Part shown: in pieces, positions 25,500 to 33,098 of the stretch
Layout of the letters: each line of letters begins with the position of its first letter
How positions within the stretch are numbered: the first letter of the stretch is position 1
Source: Gammaproteobacteria bacterium
GTDB lineage: Bacteria > Pseudomonadota > Gammaproteobacteria > Pseudomonadales > Litorivicinaceae
Length of the DNA stretch: 64,000 nucleotides
Reading direction: 5' to 3'
Assembly (NCBI GenBank): GCA_024640985.1
Contig: JAHEDY010000008.1
Coordinates: forward strand, 35,743 to 99,742
Made by a program: the position numbers and the translations under genes
Notes under the pieces: generated by a model
The model's input: only the letters and a program-made list of their open reading frames with translations
Told to the model about the DNA's origin: nothing
The model's database searches: none

Positions 25500-26373
25500 T
25501 CACCCATCGTCCGAAGATAACGTCCGTTGCATTCTGTTTATGGTGATTGCGATGGCAGGGTTTGCTGTCGAAGATGCAGTGATCAAGCAGTTATCCGCCA
25601 CCATGCCGATTTCACAGGTGCTCATGCTCATTGGTGCCGGTGGTTTGGTGGTCTTCGGGACGGTATCGCGCCTGACTCGAGTGAGCCTGGTGACAGCCGA
25701 AGTCCGAAAACCCTGGTTTATGATCCGGACGCTAGCTGAGTTGGCTTCGGCGATTTTTTTCGTGATCGCGATTGTTTACGCGTCACTGTCTGCGTCCTCG
25801 GCGATTTTACAAGCCACACCATTGGCGGTCTCACTCGCAGCCGCTTTATTCTTGAAGCAACATGTCAGTGTTCGTCAATGGGTGCTGATTGGTATGGGGT
25901 TTCTCGGTGTTTTGTGTGTGATCCAGCCGGGTCTTGAGGGGTTTAAACCTGCGGCTTTATCGGCCGTGATCGGTGTGGTCTTTTTGGCCCTTCGCGATGC
26001 GATCACCCGCTCGATCTCAGTAACTGTTCCTGCGCTTTCAGTATCTTTCTGGGCATTTTTCGCATTGTTGATGGCTGGAGTGGTCACGATTCCGTTTTTT
26101 GGCGCCTTTGGGGGGATTACGGTTGAACACATTGGACTGCTAGTGATCTCGACTCTGTGTGGCACCGGGGCTTATTTTTGTGTAGTGATGGCGACTCGTG
26201 GTGGCGATGTAGCAGTGGTTGCTCCCTTTCGCTACACCCGTTTGATCTTTGCGCTCGGTCTGGCTGTGGTGTTTTTTGACGAGGAAGTCAACGCCATGAT
26301 GTTAATCGGGAGCAGCCTGATTATCGGCTCTGGGATTGTCATGCTTGCTTCTGGGGGATCAGTCAGGAAGTAA
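25492..26373 (+). CDS. EamA/DMT family transporter
   Basis: About 10 TM segments, two EamA repeats; GTG start at 25492 overlapping the GST stop. Confidence 0.85.
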   Translation: MTSHPSSEDNVRCILFMVIAMAGFAVEDAVIKQLSATMPISQVLMLIGAGGLVVFGTVSRLTRVSLVTAEVRKPWFMIRTLAELASAIFFVIAIVYASLSASSAILQATPLAVSLAAALFLKQHVSVRQWVLIGMGFLGVLCVIQPGLEGFKPAALSAVIGVVFLALRDAITRSISVTVPALSVSFWAFFALLMAGVVTIPFFGAFGGITVEHIGLLVISTLCGTGAYFCVVMATRGGDVAVVAPFRYTRLIFALGLAVVFFDEEVNAMMLIGSSLIIGSGIVMLASGGSVRK

Positions 26374-27123
26374 GCCGACCAGAGTGCGGACGAGGTCGGC
26401 GTTATCAGACGCAATAGTCCCGTCAGGCAGCCAAATTCCATTTTCAAAACCGATACGAAGATCCATACCTTCTGATGCCGCACGGAGCAGACATGGAATT
26501 TGGCCTTGTCCAAATGCGCAAATCATTTCACGCTCGGGCCTTAGCTCCTTTGGCTGTGCTTCCCTTGCTTCCAAAAAGGGGTCCAGTTGATCAGGAGTGC
26601 TTTCTTGATCTTTTGAATATCGCCCGAGGACATACAGCACCTCAAGCGATGTTGTCTGAATGATGCCTTGATCGACCAATGAGCTTAGCGTCTTGAGGTC
26701 GTCAGTGTCGTATAAAATAAACTGAACGCGGGTTTTGGCGAGCAGTTCTGCGAAAAAAGCCGTCAAAGTTCTCGGTTCCTGTGCGCGCAGGATTTCACGG
26801 ATTGCAACAGAGACCCATGGCGCCTGGATTCGCGCTAATAAATCGATTTGAGCCTCGGCTTCGTAAATGCCTGCCGCTTCGGACGTCACTTGAACCGAAA
26901 GCCCAGGGACGCGGCGATGTAATTGCGTGATTAATGTTTCATAGCGTTCAACGTCCAAGAGGTGGAGTTGGTCGTTCGTGCGAATGTGCGCGTGAATTCC
27001 CCGAGCCCCAGCTTCAAAACAGGCCGCCGCAGTTTCCACCAAGTCCTGGTCAGTGACCGGGACTGCTGGGTGGTCAAGAGTGGTTCGTCGCGCACCATTC
27101 GGCGCAACCATGATGAACGTCAT
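26359..27123 (-). CDS. Beta-keto acid cleavage enzyme (BKACE, DUF849) family
   Basis: GARRTTLDHPAVPVTDQDLVETAAACFEAGARGIHAHIR; DLRIGFENGIWLPDGTIASDNADLVRTLV. Confidence 0.87.
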   Translation of the reverse strand: MTFIMVAPNGARRTTLDHPAVPVTDQDLVETAAACFEAGARGIHAHIRTNDQLHLLDVERYETLITQLHRRVPGLSVQVTSEAAGIYEAEAQIDLLARIQAPWVSVAIREILRAQEPRTLTAFFAELLAKTRVQFILYDTDDLKTLSSLVDQGIIQTTSLEVLYVLGRYSKDQESTPDQLDPFLEAREAQPKELRPEREMICAFGQGQIPCLLRAASEGMDLRIGFENGIWLPDGTIASDNADLVRTLVGLLPD

Positions 27124-28472
27124 GCAGCACGATCTCGACTGGAGCTAACATCGCCAATCGCACGTGTCAGGCGATCGGTAATGATCTGAACATCAGCCGC
27201 CTCAATGATGAAAGGCGGTGCCAGTAAAATATGATCGCCTGATTGCCCATCGATGGTTCCAGACATCGGGTAGCACATCAATCCATGACTCATCGCGACT
27301 TTTTTAATTTGACCCGCAGTTTTCAACGCAGGGTCTAATGGGGCTTTGGTCTCTCGGTCACCAACCAGCTCAATGCCTACAAAAAGCCCGCGTCCACGAA
27401 TATCTCCAACCCATGGATGGGATCCTAGTGAAGCATTCAAAGAGCTCTGAAGGAGCGAGCCCATTGCCTGAACATGCTCCATCATTCCTGGTGCAGTGAG
27501 CTCTTCCATCACAGCTAATCCAGCCGCACAGGCGGTTGGATGCCCCATATAGGTGTGGCCATGCTGAAAGAACCCGGATCCGTCAACGATCGCCTGATAG
27601 ATGAAGTGTTGGCATAGCATCGCACCGATGGGCTGAATTCCTGCTCCAAGGCCTTTAGCGATACACAGCATATCTGGTTTGACTCGATCGTGATCACAGG
27701 CATACAGGTAACCGGTTCGCCCCATGCCGCACATGACTTCATCGAGTATTAACAACACACCATATTGATCGCAAATGTCTCGAATCCGCTTGTAATATCC
27801 ATCAACCGCGGGAACAGCTCCCATGGTGGCGCCCACTACCGGCTCGGCGACAAAGGCAGCGACGCGGCCCTCACCGATGCGTAAAATTTCCTGTTCCAGT
27901 TCATTCGCAACTCGCAAACCGTAGGCTTCAGGTGTTTCTCCCGGATTTGCCCAGCGATAATAATGACAGGGGCTGATGTGACTCATGTGCGTTGGTAGCA
28001 GTGGCTCGAACTGTCGACGACGCCATTGATTACCGCCACTCCCAAGTGCTCCGAGAGTATTGCCGTGGTAGCTCTGGCGGCGGCCAATAATATGGGTGCG
28101 GTCAGGTTCGCCAATTTCGAGGAAATACTGCCGCGCAAGCTTCAGTGCTGCTTCCATAGCTTCGCTTCCACCACTGACGAAATAGACGTGATCGATTCCA
28201 TCTGGAGCTTGATTAACTAACACATCGGCGAGCTGCTCAGCCGGTTCGGAGGTAAAGAAGCCAGTATGCGCAAACGCCATGGTTTGCAACTGCTGACATG
28301 CTCGATCAATGACTTTTTTCGGAGTATGACCAAGACAACTCACCGCAGCTCCTCCACAGGCATCAAGATAGCGATTACCTTCGGAATCGATGAGATAAAT
28401 TCCATCACCGGCAACAGCAATGGGCAGGCTAAGCTTTGGCGCTCGGCCAAAAATTGAGTGAGAAACGGCCAC
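27120..28472 (-). CDS. Class III pyridoxal-phosphate aminotransferase
   Basis: RYLDACGGAAVSCLGH, YFVSGGSEAMEAALKLARQY, LILDEVMCGMGRTGYLYACDH, CIAKGLGAGIQPIGAML. Confidence 0.93.
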   Translation of the reverse strand: MAVSHSIFGRAPKLSLPIAVAGDGIYLIDSEGNRYLDACGGAAVSCLGHTPKKVIDRACQQLQTMAFAHTGFFTSEPAEQLADVLVNQAPDGIDHVYFVSGGSEAMEAALKLARQYFLEIGEPDRTHIIGRRQSYHGNTLGALGSGGNQWRRRQFEPLLPTHMSHISPCHYYRWANPGETPEAYGLRVANELEQEILRIGEGRVAAFVAEPVVGATMGAVPAVDGYYKRIRDICDQYGVLLILDEVMCGMGRTGYLYACDHDRVKPDMLCIAKGLGAGIQPIGAMLCQHFIYQAIVDGSGFFQHGHTYMGHPTACAAGLAVMEELTAPGMMEHVQAMGSLLQSSLNASLGSHPWVGDIRGRGLFVGIELVGDRETKAPLDPALKTAGQIKKVAMSHGLMCYPMSGTIDGQSGDHILLAPPFIIEAADVQIITDRLTRAIGDVSSSRDRAA

Positions 28473-31064
28473 TTATACCTCCTTCGAACGACGTGTTCGT
28501 TGTGACCATCCGACAATGAGCAGCAGGAAAAGTGCAGGTAAATACATCCATTCCTTCGTCAGTCGGTTTGTTTGTTCCATTGCAATTTCAGCGAGTTCTA
28601 CAGGGGTGTCCCCATAAAAATCGAATCGTTGCATTGTCTGAAAATTCTCAGTACCTGGGAAAGGCTCGTCCAAGAGGATTGAAGCCTGTTCTGAGCGAGC
28701 AAGGACTCCTGCCTGATCCAAGGCGCTTGAGAGGGTGTTGGCGGAGTCGGCTTGGATCAGTAACACCAGTTGTGTGAGTTGATCCGGATTGTCGAAATCT
28801 GGACCTTCGATGGTCAGCCTGACCTGGCCGTTCAGATTTGCTTGATCCAAGGTCGTTTCGCTGATGGTTAGAGAACTCCATGGTTCTTGAATCTGATCGA
28901 TCCAATATCCCGGGCGAACCAGTGTGAATGCGATCAATAGAAGGGTTGCTGTTTCCCACCACTTCGACTTCACAATCCAAAAGCCCTGAGTTGCAGCACC
29001 AAATAGCATCATGGCAGTGGCGGCAACGATAAAGATGATGACTCCCTGGAGCACAGTGACGTCGATTAACAGCAGGTCGGTATTGAAGATGAAAATAAAG
29101 GGCAGAATAGCCGTTCGAATATCGTAGGCGAATCCCTGAAGGCCGGTACGGATCGGATCGCCTTGGCTGATGGCTGCTGCTGCAAAGGCAGCCAATCCAA
29201 CAGGGGGTGTGTCATCTGCGAGGATTCCGAAATAAAAAACAAACAAGTGCACAGCGATTAACGGAACAATCAAACCTGATTGCGCACCGACGCTGACGAT
29301 GACCGGCGCCATCAACGATGACACGACAATGTAGTTGGCAGTCGTCGGAAGGCCCATCCCTAAAATCAGACACATCACGGCAACGAGTATGAGCATCAAA
29401 ATCAAGCTACCACCAGAAAGCACTTCGACCAGTTCACCAATGACTTGATGCGCGCCAGTTAACGAGACGGTGCCGATAATGAGACCCGCGGCTGCTGTCG
29501 CCACGCCAATGCTGATCATGTTTTCAGCACCTTGAATCATTCCGGAGATCGCGGCTTTGAGACCGCCAACCCATTGTTCGCCTGTCCATGACTGACCGCG
29601 GAACAGGGCTTTGATTGGGTCTTGCGTCAGAATCACAAACAAGATGGCCATCGTGCCCCAGAATGCGGACAATGCAGGTGAAAGACGCTCAATGAGTACG
29701 CACCAGAGTAACACCACGATCGGGACTAAAAAGTGCAATCCTTGAACTAAAATTTCTCGCGCAGGAATGTCATGGATCGAAGGGTCATCTGCAAGTAGAT
29801 CGCCAAGATCCTTGCTCTTCGCGGCAATTTTCAGGGTGACCAAATAAATGGTCACAAAGAGTAACATCGCAGCCGGAATCGTTGTTTCCGGGGCAATGCT
29901 CTGGGTCCAGCCAAATAGAAGATTGGTCACAATTCCTAAGAGTCCAAATCCCAAGAATCCAGCAATCACACCGCCAAGCTTGTGCGCGAGCGGCAATGCA
30001 CGCGACGAACGTTCCGATCCCTCAAGTCCGAGTTTGACGGCTTCTAAATGGACGATATACATCAGTCCGATATAGGAAACGATGGCGGGTAACACCGCAT
30101 GAGTAATGAGGTCTAAATATGAAATACCAGTGAACTCGGCAATCAAAAACGCGGCTGCACCCATGACCGGTGGAGTGAGCTGTCCGTTTGTCGATGCGGC
30201 GACTTCGATCGCACCCGCTTTTTCAGCGGTAAGGCCGGTCTTTTTCATCAAAGGAATGGTGAAGGTTCCTGTCGAAACGACATTGGCGATTGACGAGCCT
30301 GAGTAGATTCCGGATAGCCCGGAGGCAACGACTGCGGCTTTCGCTGGTCCACCTCGCAGATGCCCCAAAAGGGCGTAGGCCAGGCGGATAAAATAAATTC
30401 CAGCGCCGGCTTTCTCGAGCAGTGCTCCGAAAAGTACGAACAAAAAAATCATTGAGGAGGCAACGCCGAGAGCAACGCCAAAGACTCCTTCGGTTTGCAT
30501 CCAGAAATGCCAGAGGGCTTTGTTTAGCGATGCGCCTTTCCACTGCATGGTGTCAGGCATGAAGCTTTGGTCACCAAAAAACACATAAAACAGAAAGCAT
30601 GAGCAGACGATCAGCAGAGGTAAGCCGAGGCATCGATAAAGAGCCAGCGCGAGGCTGAGCATGCCGATCGCAGAGATCCATAAATCGCTAGCGGTTGGAA
30701 GCCCAGCGCGATCTGAGATTTGGTCTTTAAAAACCAGTAAATAGAGGCATGACATTGCTGCAATAAGGGCAGCTACATAGTCATACCATGGTGTTTGGGC
30801 GCTCGGTGATTGTTTGTTGAGCGGGTAGGCGAGCATCGCGAGCGCGAATGCGAACGCGAGATGAATTTGTCGGACTTCTTGATTGTTAAATACCAAGCTG
30901 AGCCCAGTCCACTCGGTCAAGACGAAGGGAACGACACTTGCCACGTAGAGCTGAAACACGGACCACAAAAAGCAGAGTGTTAGGATCAGCGTACGGGCGC
31001 TCCGATAGGGCGGATGGCGCCGATCATCAGCCACCGGAAAGGGTTGGTTATCGCTTGTATTCAT
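28473..31064 (-). CDS. TRAP transporter permease, fused DctQM type (TAXI class) with C-terminal DUF3394-like region
   Basis: More than 12 TM; GLSGIYSGSSIANVVSTGTFTIPLMKKTGLTAEKAGAIEVAASTNGQLTPPVMGAAAFLIAEF; start placed at 31064. Confidence 0.92.
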   Translation of the reverse strand: MNTSDNQPFPVADDRRHPPYRSARTLILTLCFLWSVFQLYVASVVPFVLTEWTGLSLVFNNQEVRQIHLAFAFALAMLAYPLNKQSPSAQTPWYDYVAALIAAMSCLYLLVFKDQISDRAGLPTASDLWISAIGMLSLALALYRCLGLPLLIVCSCFLFYVFFGDQSFMPDTMQWKGASLNKALWHFWMQTEGVFGVALGVASSMIFLFVLFGALLEKAGAGIYFIRLAYALLGHLRGGPAKAAVVASGLSGIYSGSSIANVVSTGTFTIPLMKKTGLTAEKAGAIEVAASTNGQLTPPVMGAAAFLIAEFTGISYLDLITHAVLPAIVSYIGLMYIVHLEAVKLGLEGSERSSRALPLAHKLGGVIAGFLGFGLLGIVTNLLFGWTQSIAPETTIPAAMLLFVTIYLVTLKIAAKSKDLGDLLADDPSIHDIPAREILVQGLHFLVPIVVLLWCVLIERLSPALSAFWGTMAILFVILTQDPIKALFRGQSWTGEQWVGGLKAAISGMIQGAENMISIGVATAAAGLIIGTVSLTGAHQVIGELVEVLSGGSLILMLILVAVMCLILGMGLPTTANYIVVSSLMAPVIVSVGAQSGLIVPLIAVHLFVFYFGILADDTPPVGLAAFAAAAISQGDPIRTGLQGFAYDIRTAILPFIFIFNTDLLLIDVTVLQGVIIFIVAATAMMLFGAATQGFWIVKSKWWETATLLLIAFTLVRPGYWIDQIQEPWSSLTISETTLDQANLNGQVRLTIEGPDFDNPDQLTQLVLLIQADSANTLSSALDQAGVLARSEQASILLDEPFPGTENFQTMQRFDFYGDTPVELAEIAMEQTNRLTKEWMYLPALFLLLIVGWSQRTRRSKEV

Positions 31065-31087
31065 CGTTTTTCGGTCAGGTGAGAGTT

Positions 31088-31121: not shown

Positions 31122-32090
31122 TTATTTCCAGCCACGCTCTTTGTAGTACTTCATCGCACCTGGGTGAATTGGCGCTGAGAGTCCATCGCTAATCATCTGC
31201 TCTTCGTTAAGATTGGCAAATGCTGGGTGGAGCTTTTTAAAGTCTGCGAAGTTGTCAAACACAGCTTTCACCACTGTGTACACGACATCGTCAGAAATTT
31301 TTGCTGAAGTGACAAAGGTTGCACCGACACCAAAGGTCGTTGTTTCGTTTGGATTGTCTTTATACATTCCGCCAGGAACTGTTGCGACACGGTAGAACGA
31401 GTTATCAGCGACAAGCTTGTCGATCGGCGCACCTTTGACAGACACGAGACGGACATCACAGCTATTTGTTGCTTCGGTGATTGCGGCAGCCGGGTGGCCG
31501 ATGGTGTAAATCATTGCGTCGATTTTCCCGTCACACAATGCCTGCGCCATTTCTGAACCTTTCAGTTCGGCAGCAACCGCGAAATCGCTCATCTTCATGC
31601 CAAAGGCATCCATGACCACTTCCATCGTTGCGCGTTGGCCAGACCCTGGGTTACCCACGTTGACTTTCATGCCCTTGAGATCTTCAAACTTCGTGACATT
31701 GTTGAATGACTTGCCGCGAACTAACAGTGTGAAGGGTTCAGGATGGACAGAGAACACAGCGCGAAGGTCTGTGAAGGCGCCTTGGTCCTTAAATTTTGAT
31801 GAGCCGTTGTAGGCATGATACTGCCAGTCTGACTGCGCAACACCGAACTCGAGCTCACCCGCCCGGATCGTATTGATGTTGTAAACGGATCCACCTGTGG
31901 ATTCAGCAGAACAGCGGATGCCGTGCGTCTTACGATCTTTGTTAACAAGACGACAGATAGCACCACCTGTTGGATAGTAGACGCCAGTCACGCCACCTGT
32001 GCCAATTGAGATAAATTGTTGTGCCTGTACAGCTCCTGCTGTGAGACCGAAGGCAGCAACAGATGCGAGGGCGAAGTGTTTAATCTTCAT
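31122..32090 (-). CDS. TAXI family TRAP transporter solute-binding protein
   Basis: Signal peptide [69 protein letters not shown]; start placed at 32090. Confidence 0.94.
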
Positions 32091-32178
32091 AGATGTACTC
32101 CTTGTTTTTGTACTTTTGTGTCCTAGCAAGACATCGCAAACTATCACCGAGTGGAAGAGCCTTCGCAAACTTTGTGGT

Positions 32179-32226
32179 ACGTTTGTTTCGAAATTTAAGG
32201 TTTTTTCCTATTTTCGAAACAAACGT
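32179..32226. promoter_or_regulatory. Perfect 15-bp inverted repeat, candidate RpiR operator in divergent promoter
   Basis: ACGTTTGTTTCGAAA (32179-32193) ... 18 nt ... TTTCGAAACAAACGT (32212-32226); each arm contains the palindrome TTTCGAAA. Confidence 0.75.
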
Positions 32227-32240
32227 GTTGTGAGCGAGTC

Positions 32241-33098
32241 ATGAATATCCACGCCATCAAGGCCAAAATTGAGAGTTGTCCGCCGACGCAGCAGCGAGTT
32301 GGTCGATATCTATTACGCCACGGCGCTGAAATTCCTTTTCTGAGCGTTCGAGCGTTGGCAGCTCGGTCTGGCGTCACCCCCTCGACAGTCATGCGGTTAA
32401 TGAAATCGCTTCGATTCGACGGCTATGGCGATCTGCAAACCGTATTTCGCAGGGAGTACCTCGGTCCATCCGAAGCCATCACAACAGCGAAAGAAAACGA
32501 ACATGAACGATCGTTCCGAGTGGCGTTGGCGAGCGTGTTTGCCCCAGAGAAACGCGAGCAACTCGATCGGATTGCTCGATTGATCTTTGAGTCGCCGTGC
32601 CACGTCGCAGGGTTTCGAAGTGCCTACAGCCTGTCACATTATTTGGCGTATCTGTTGAATATGATTCAGCACAATGTGTTTTTGGTGCCCAATTCCGAGT
32701 CGGCCGCTTATGACCACTTGATGCTTGCGAGACCTGACCATGTGTTGGTGGTGTTTTCAACACATCCTTATGCATCGCAGTCGATCAAGGTCGCGAGATT
32801 AGCGAAAGAGAGTGATTTGAGGATCATTGCGGTCACTGATAGCTCAGAATCTCCCTTGTGTGCGCTTGCTCACGAAGTGGTGGTGATGGATCAAATCTTG
32901 ATGGATTACATTCCCAGCAGAATTTCCTTTTTTGCTCTGATCGAATATTTGGTTGAGAGCGGTTGTAGTCTTCAGGATCGAAAATCCCGACGAGAATTGA
33001 AGCAATTTCGGCACCAAATGGAAAAACTGTCAGGATATTGGTCACCGGAATCTAGTGATCCATTCGTAGATCGTGAGCAAGAAGGATTATCGCCATGA
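32241..33098 (+). CDS. MurR/RpiR family transcriptional regulator (HTH + SIS domain)
   Basis: N-terminal HTH: VRALAARSGVTPSTVMRLMKSLRFDGYGDLQTVFR; SIS-like CHVAGFRSAYSLSHYLAYLL..VLVVFSTHPYASQSIKVARLA. Confidence 0.92.
   Translation: MNIHAIKAKIESCPPTQQRVGRYLLRHGAEIPFLSVRALAARSGVTPSTVMRLMKSLRFDGYGDLQTVFRREYLGPSEAITTAKENEHERSFRVALASVFAPEKREQLDRIARLIFESPCHVAGFRSAYSLSHYLAYLLNMIQHNVFLVPNSESAAYDHLMLARPDHVLVVFSTHPYASQSIKVARLAKESDLRIIAVTDSSESPLCALAHEVVVMDQILMDYIPSRISFFALIEYLVESGCSLQDRKSRRELKQFRHQMEKLSGYWSPESSDPFVDREQEGLSP

Follow-up and report, generated by a model that had tools for sequence, protein, structure and literature searches.

What is the function of a perfect 15-bp inverted repeat in the short gap between two divergent genes, one for an RpiR-family regulator and the other for the solute-binding protein of a TAXI-type TRAP transporter? 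The repeat lies in a 64-kb stretch of DNA (hereafter the window), part of a 1.63-Mb genome assembly; Litoricola sp., LSUCC0096 and HIMB30 are the recorded names of its near relatives, and NCBI now uses Litorivicinus for the genus. The gap is 150 bp long, extending from the ATG of the TAXI gene, which ends at 32090 (minus strand), to the ATG of rpiR at 32241 (plus strand). Comparison with related genomes makes it quite likely, in our judgment, that the repeat is a two-site operator of the divergently encoded RpiR regulator, serving both autoregulation and control of the TAXI operon.

The regulator gene, rpiR (32241–33098, plus strand, 285 aa), encodes both domains that define the MurR/RpiR transcriptional regulators, an N-terminal HTH_6 domain (PF01418, 35.3 bits against a cut-off of 28.3) and a C-terminal SIS domain (PF01380, 64.2 bits against a cut-off of 25). 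Its best scores against the named NCBIfam equivalogs (HexR, AlsR and PRK11337) were 31–35 bits, below cut-offs of 296–400. Among PDB sequences only 4ivn, which we take to be NanR of Vibrio vulnificus, was matched. On the minus strand, the gene for the TAXI-family TRAP solute-binding protein (31122–32090; TIGR02122 and NMT1_3) is followed in order by those for a fused TRAP permease (28473–31076; TRAP_fused, DctM and DUF3394), a class-III aminotransferase of the PRK07483 type (27120–28472; above the NCBIfam cut-off) and a member of the BKACE (beta-keto acid cleavage enzyme) family (26359–27123; PF05853, above cut-off). The content of the operon, which encodes an aminotransferase as well as a beta-keto acid cleavage enzyme, does not suggest a phosphosugar as the SIS ligand, and the sugar-phosphate effector proposed in a sequence-only reading of the locus finds no local support.

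The two arms of the repeat, ACGTTTGTTTCGAAA (32179–32193) and TTTCGAAACAAACGT (32212–32226), both read on the plus strand, are exact reverse complements (15 of 15 pairs) separated by 18 nt, as had been claimed. The second arm ends 14 nt before the rpiR ATG, and the TAXI ATG ends 88 nt short of the first arm, so that the distances of 15 and 89 bp given earlier were correct within 1 nt. When loops of up to 60 were considered, this was the sole perfect inverted repeat of at least 13 bp in the window and thus the longest. None of 60 windows simulated by a first-order Markov model contained a repeat of at least 15 bp, and none of 20,000 simulated 150-bp intergenic regions reached 15 bp, which bears out the view that the repeat is unlikely to be of chance origin. 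Each arm in the source strain includes TTTCGAAA, a perfect 8-bp palindrome. This octamer occurs five times in the window where 2.2 occurrences are expected, a count reached in 8 of 100 shuffles, and is therefore not clearly enriched; the pair TTTCGAAA-N8-28-TTTCGAAA, on the other hand, occurs only once in the genome.

The orthologous gaps of five other species of the genus (L042 to L046) could be aligned with the window without indels across the repeat. Symmetry was then scored at all centres over the six species, the scores being averaged over four species clusters. The highest dyad scores of the variable region fell at 32222.5 and 32182.5 (with a 2-bp gap), and only a wholly invariant block around 32170 scored higher. 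The conserved unit is a 14-bp palindrome with the consensus RRNACR-NN-YGTNYY, present in two copies at each locus, and its core ACR is found in all 24 half-sites of the six species; the best copies are GGTACATTTGTACC and GGAACAATTGTTCC. In the window, site 1 is GGTACGTTTGTTTC (32176–32189, centre 32182.5) and site 2 is GAAACAAACGTGTT (32216–32229, centre 32222.5), both of them imperfect palindromes. The corresponding pairs are GGTACGTTTGTATC and GGAACAAACGTGTT in L042, GGTACATTTGTATC and GGAACAATTGTTCC in L043, GGTACAGTTGTGTC and GGCACATTTGTTTC in L044, GGTACATTTGTGTC and GGAACATTTGTTCC in L045, and GGTACGATCGTGTC and GGAACGTTTGTTCC in L046. The two dyad centres are 40 bp apart in every one of the six species, and the 26-bp spacer between the sites (32190–32215), which contains halves of the TTTCGAAA octamers, is constant in length while 19 of its 26 columns vary. 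Site 2 is perfect or nearly so in relatives (GGAACAATTGTTCC and GGAACATTTGTTCC). In the source strain it is a degenerate palindrome with three of six half-site pairs, and this counts against the operator reading. A candidate third palindrome within the rpiR coding sequence, TGAACGATCGTTCC (32504–32517), was kept only in the near-identical L042 and probably arose by chance.

How, then, is the perfect repeat to be understood? The match between its arms falls from 15 of 15 in the source strain through 13 in the nearest relative and 12, 10 and 9 in others to 8 in the farthest. The perfect repeat is accordingly not kept in orthologous loci, and the pair of sites is. Because each site is itself palindromic, two tandem copies also form one large inverted repeat, and the 15-bp repeat is most plausibly a by-product of tandem sites whose copies happen to match fully in the source strain. 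The notion of a palindromic RpiR operator with two sites is upheld by this phylogenetic footprinting; the unit, however, appears not to be TTTCGAAA, and the centres are separated by 40 rather than 26 bp. In having two conserved 14-bp palindromes upstream of its own gene, the regulator appears to share the palindromic operator placement of the MurR/RpiR family. We regard the operator as new, ordinary in kind and well supported; the earlier reading needed correction in the recognition unit, in the spacing and in what the perfect repeat means.

A probable promoter of the TAXI gene was located on the minus strand at 32140–32168, with conserved −35 (TTGCGA, 32168–32163) and −10 (GATAGT, 32145–32140) hexamers 17 bp apart. 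Each hexamer is conserved in every species with sequence at its position (five species for the −10), and all 17 columns between them vary; in a consensus promoter scan this promoter fell below threshold. Site 1 would accordingly be placed at about −50 of the TAXI promoter, adjoining its −35. For rpiR, the promoter is probably within the spacer, where the sequence offers TATTTT (32209–32214, plus strand) as a possible but weak −10. The same consensus scan found no rpiR promoter, which also counts against the operator reading. The segment 32163–32180, TCGCAAACTTTGTGGTAC, is identical in all six aligned species and has a dyad of its own, GCAAAcTTTGT, centred at 32170. Its conservation seems to exceed what the TAXI −35 would call for and may perhaps mark the site of a second factor.

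In the mechanism that we propose, each palindrome would bind one RpiR dimer by its helix-turn-helix, and the pair, about four helical turns apart, would be occupied cooperatively by two dimers or by one bridging tetramer. The start codon of rpiR is 11 bp beyond site 2, which would overlap the start of rpiR transcription; with site 1 overlapping the −35 region of the same gene, rpiR would repress itself. Since site 1 adjoins the TAXI −35, the same complex would also control the TAXI-TRAP/aminotransferase/BKACE operon. Repression would most likely be relieved, or turned to activation, once the SIS domain bound its ligand, for which the compound taken up or an intermediate of catabolism is the probable candidate. 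A more specific version, which we consider rather doubtful, is a switch of fixed geometry in which a single RpiR tetramer bridges both palindromes, shuts its own promoter between them and contacts RNA polymerase from site 1, activating the TAXI operon when the SIS domain has bound a beta-amino or beta-keto acid type of ligand instead of a sugar phosphate.

The specificity of the paired sites was examined in 22 genomes of the genus. Six genomes have the pattern RRNACRNNYGTNYY-N26-RRNACRNNYGTNYY, each a single time and at the rpiR/TAXI locus, with no second copy elsewhere in the 22 genomes and no occurrence of its reversed control. The pattern was derived from these six loci and its matches there are circular by construction, so what is informative is that it is absent elsewhere, together with the result from three further relatives. 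Orthologues of TAXI and rpiR co-occur, side by side, in the same genus genomes, and the paired sites are absent from those that lack both genes. In the three further relatives, the regulators of which are roughly 35–54% identical, each gap has one strict copy of the palindrome (GATACATATGTTTC, GGTACATTTGTACC and GGTACATTTGTACC) at 85–96 bp from the TAXI start, which is the place of site 1; shuffled versions of these gaps hold a strict copy in 0.02–0.16% of cases. Site 2 was not recognisable in the same three gaps. Searches with single sites, mismatches allowed, for other members of the regulon gave as many matches as the reversed control.

Several other observations were made among the relatives. 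In the genome G012 (L014, 659–1647) no TAXI, permease or aminotransferase gene is present and rpiR is mostly missing; what is left of it, a tail of about 49 codons between BKACE and an SMR gene, is a probable deletion scar. In one metagenome-assembled genome (L048, around 5600) the rpiR orthologue is in two frames, by a frameshift or an assembly error, and its operator-like palindrome GGTACATTTGTACC is intact. In other families of the order, distant RpiR regulators have as neighbours BKACE and TRAP permease genes (L073), these and the aminotransferase (L074), or just the aminotransferase (L085), which suggests a catabolic cluster of wider occurrence; no similar dyad was seen upstream of these three clusters.

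Could the palindromes bind a regulator other than the adjacent RpiR, such as LexA or another global factor? Some LexA boxes resemble GWAC-N4-GTWC, and the invariant block with its dyad at 32170 indicates that other factors may bind nearby. However, the lexA promoter of this genome has no GWAC-N4-GTDC within 400 bp upstream and carries instead a CTG-N10-CAG element, CTGATAATTTATTCAG; identity with an SOS box, which calls for the same motif in the lexA promoter, was rejected for this reason. The restriction of the site pair to the rpiR locus, and its absence from genomes of the genus that have neither rpiR nor TAXI, likewise make another regulator improbable. Somewhat less probable still is the arrangement first put forward, with TTTCGAAA as the recognition unit, dimers 26 bp apart and the whole 15-bp repeat as the operator. 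It draws on the octamer being a perfect palindrome in both arms and forming a pair unique in the genome, and five of the six species share the TCGAA that adjoins site 1, but dyad symmetry across species is low at the octamer centres (32189.5 and 32215.5), the arms match at only 8–10 of 15 positions in most relatives, and the three further relatives have no TTTCGAAA unit and yet carry the 14-bp palindrome. That the repeat acts as an RNA hairpin, in a leader or by attenuation, is very unlikely. Although the window strand folds well at −23.3 kcal/mol (z −4.6), and L044 also folds well (z −4.6), the z-scores of −0.7 (L046), −0.9 (L045) and −1.8 (L042) indicate that folding is not maintained in these other relatives, and arm pairing decays; no T-run terminator was found at the repeat, and the TAXI transcript probably starts downstream of it and the rpiR transcript within it. 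A functionless chance repeat, to which only the strain-specificity of the perfect match lends anything, is the least credible of all in view of the simulations and of palindromes and a 40-bp spacing conserved in six species.

With the proposed two-site operator, a so far uncharacterised RpiR regulator tied to a TAXI-TRAP/aminotransferase/BKACE operon of marine bacteria gains concrete candidate sites and a concrete spacing; otherwise the locus looks like an ordinary autoregulated catabolic operon. TAXI transporters are described as widespread and poorly understood (PMC11574862), and for that reason the ligand of the regulator would also indicate the substrate of the transporter. Among the papers searched for RpiR regulators tied to TAXI transporters, none combined all the terms.

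The closest parallels in layout are SiaR of Haemophilus influenzae, which binds in the region that separates the divergent nan and siaPT (TRAP) operons, represses, and activates with its ligand and CRP (PMC2946308), and NanR of V. vulnificus. As in those systems, a SIS-domain regulator of RpiR type is associated with the short stretch that separates two divergent operons, and a TRAP transporter is encoded in one of the two. Those systems, however, have a DctP-type sialic-acid TRAP transporter, a sugar-phosphate effector and a partner site for CRP, whereas the present locus has a TAXI-type transporter with an aminotransferase and BKACE, two palindromes and no identified CRP site. RccR/HexR of Pseudomonas bind 15-bp pseudo-palindromic sites, two in the aceE promoter and one upstream of the regulator's own gene (PMC5489143). 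The palindromes described here are of similar size, likewise come as a pair and lie near the gene of the regulator, but RccR/HexR use TGTAGT/ACTACA half-sites, aceE copies 68 bp apart (40 bp here), KDPG as effector and a multi-gene regulon.

SpNanR of Streptococcus pneumoniae, also an RpiR regulator, recognises near-palindromic sites and is in a dimer-tetramer equilibrium; according to a published proposal its tetramer bridges a palindrome and a further half-site some 150 angstroms away, beside the site of the RNA polymerase alpha-CTD (PMC12713135). Its sites are of the TGAAA-N4-TTTCA type, with one full site and a half-site, and differ from the two full RRNAC-N4-GTNYY palindromes found here. 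Alignment on the dyads shows G-W-A at positions −6 to −4 to be common to the operators of SpNanR and RccR; at this locus every half-site has A at −4, and G is preferred at −6, a resemblance and not a test. The span of two sites 40 bp apart is approximately similar to that of SpNanR, and the constant spacing would be compatible with an SpNanR-like tetramer on the two sites.
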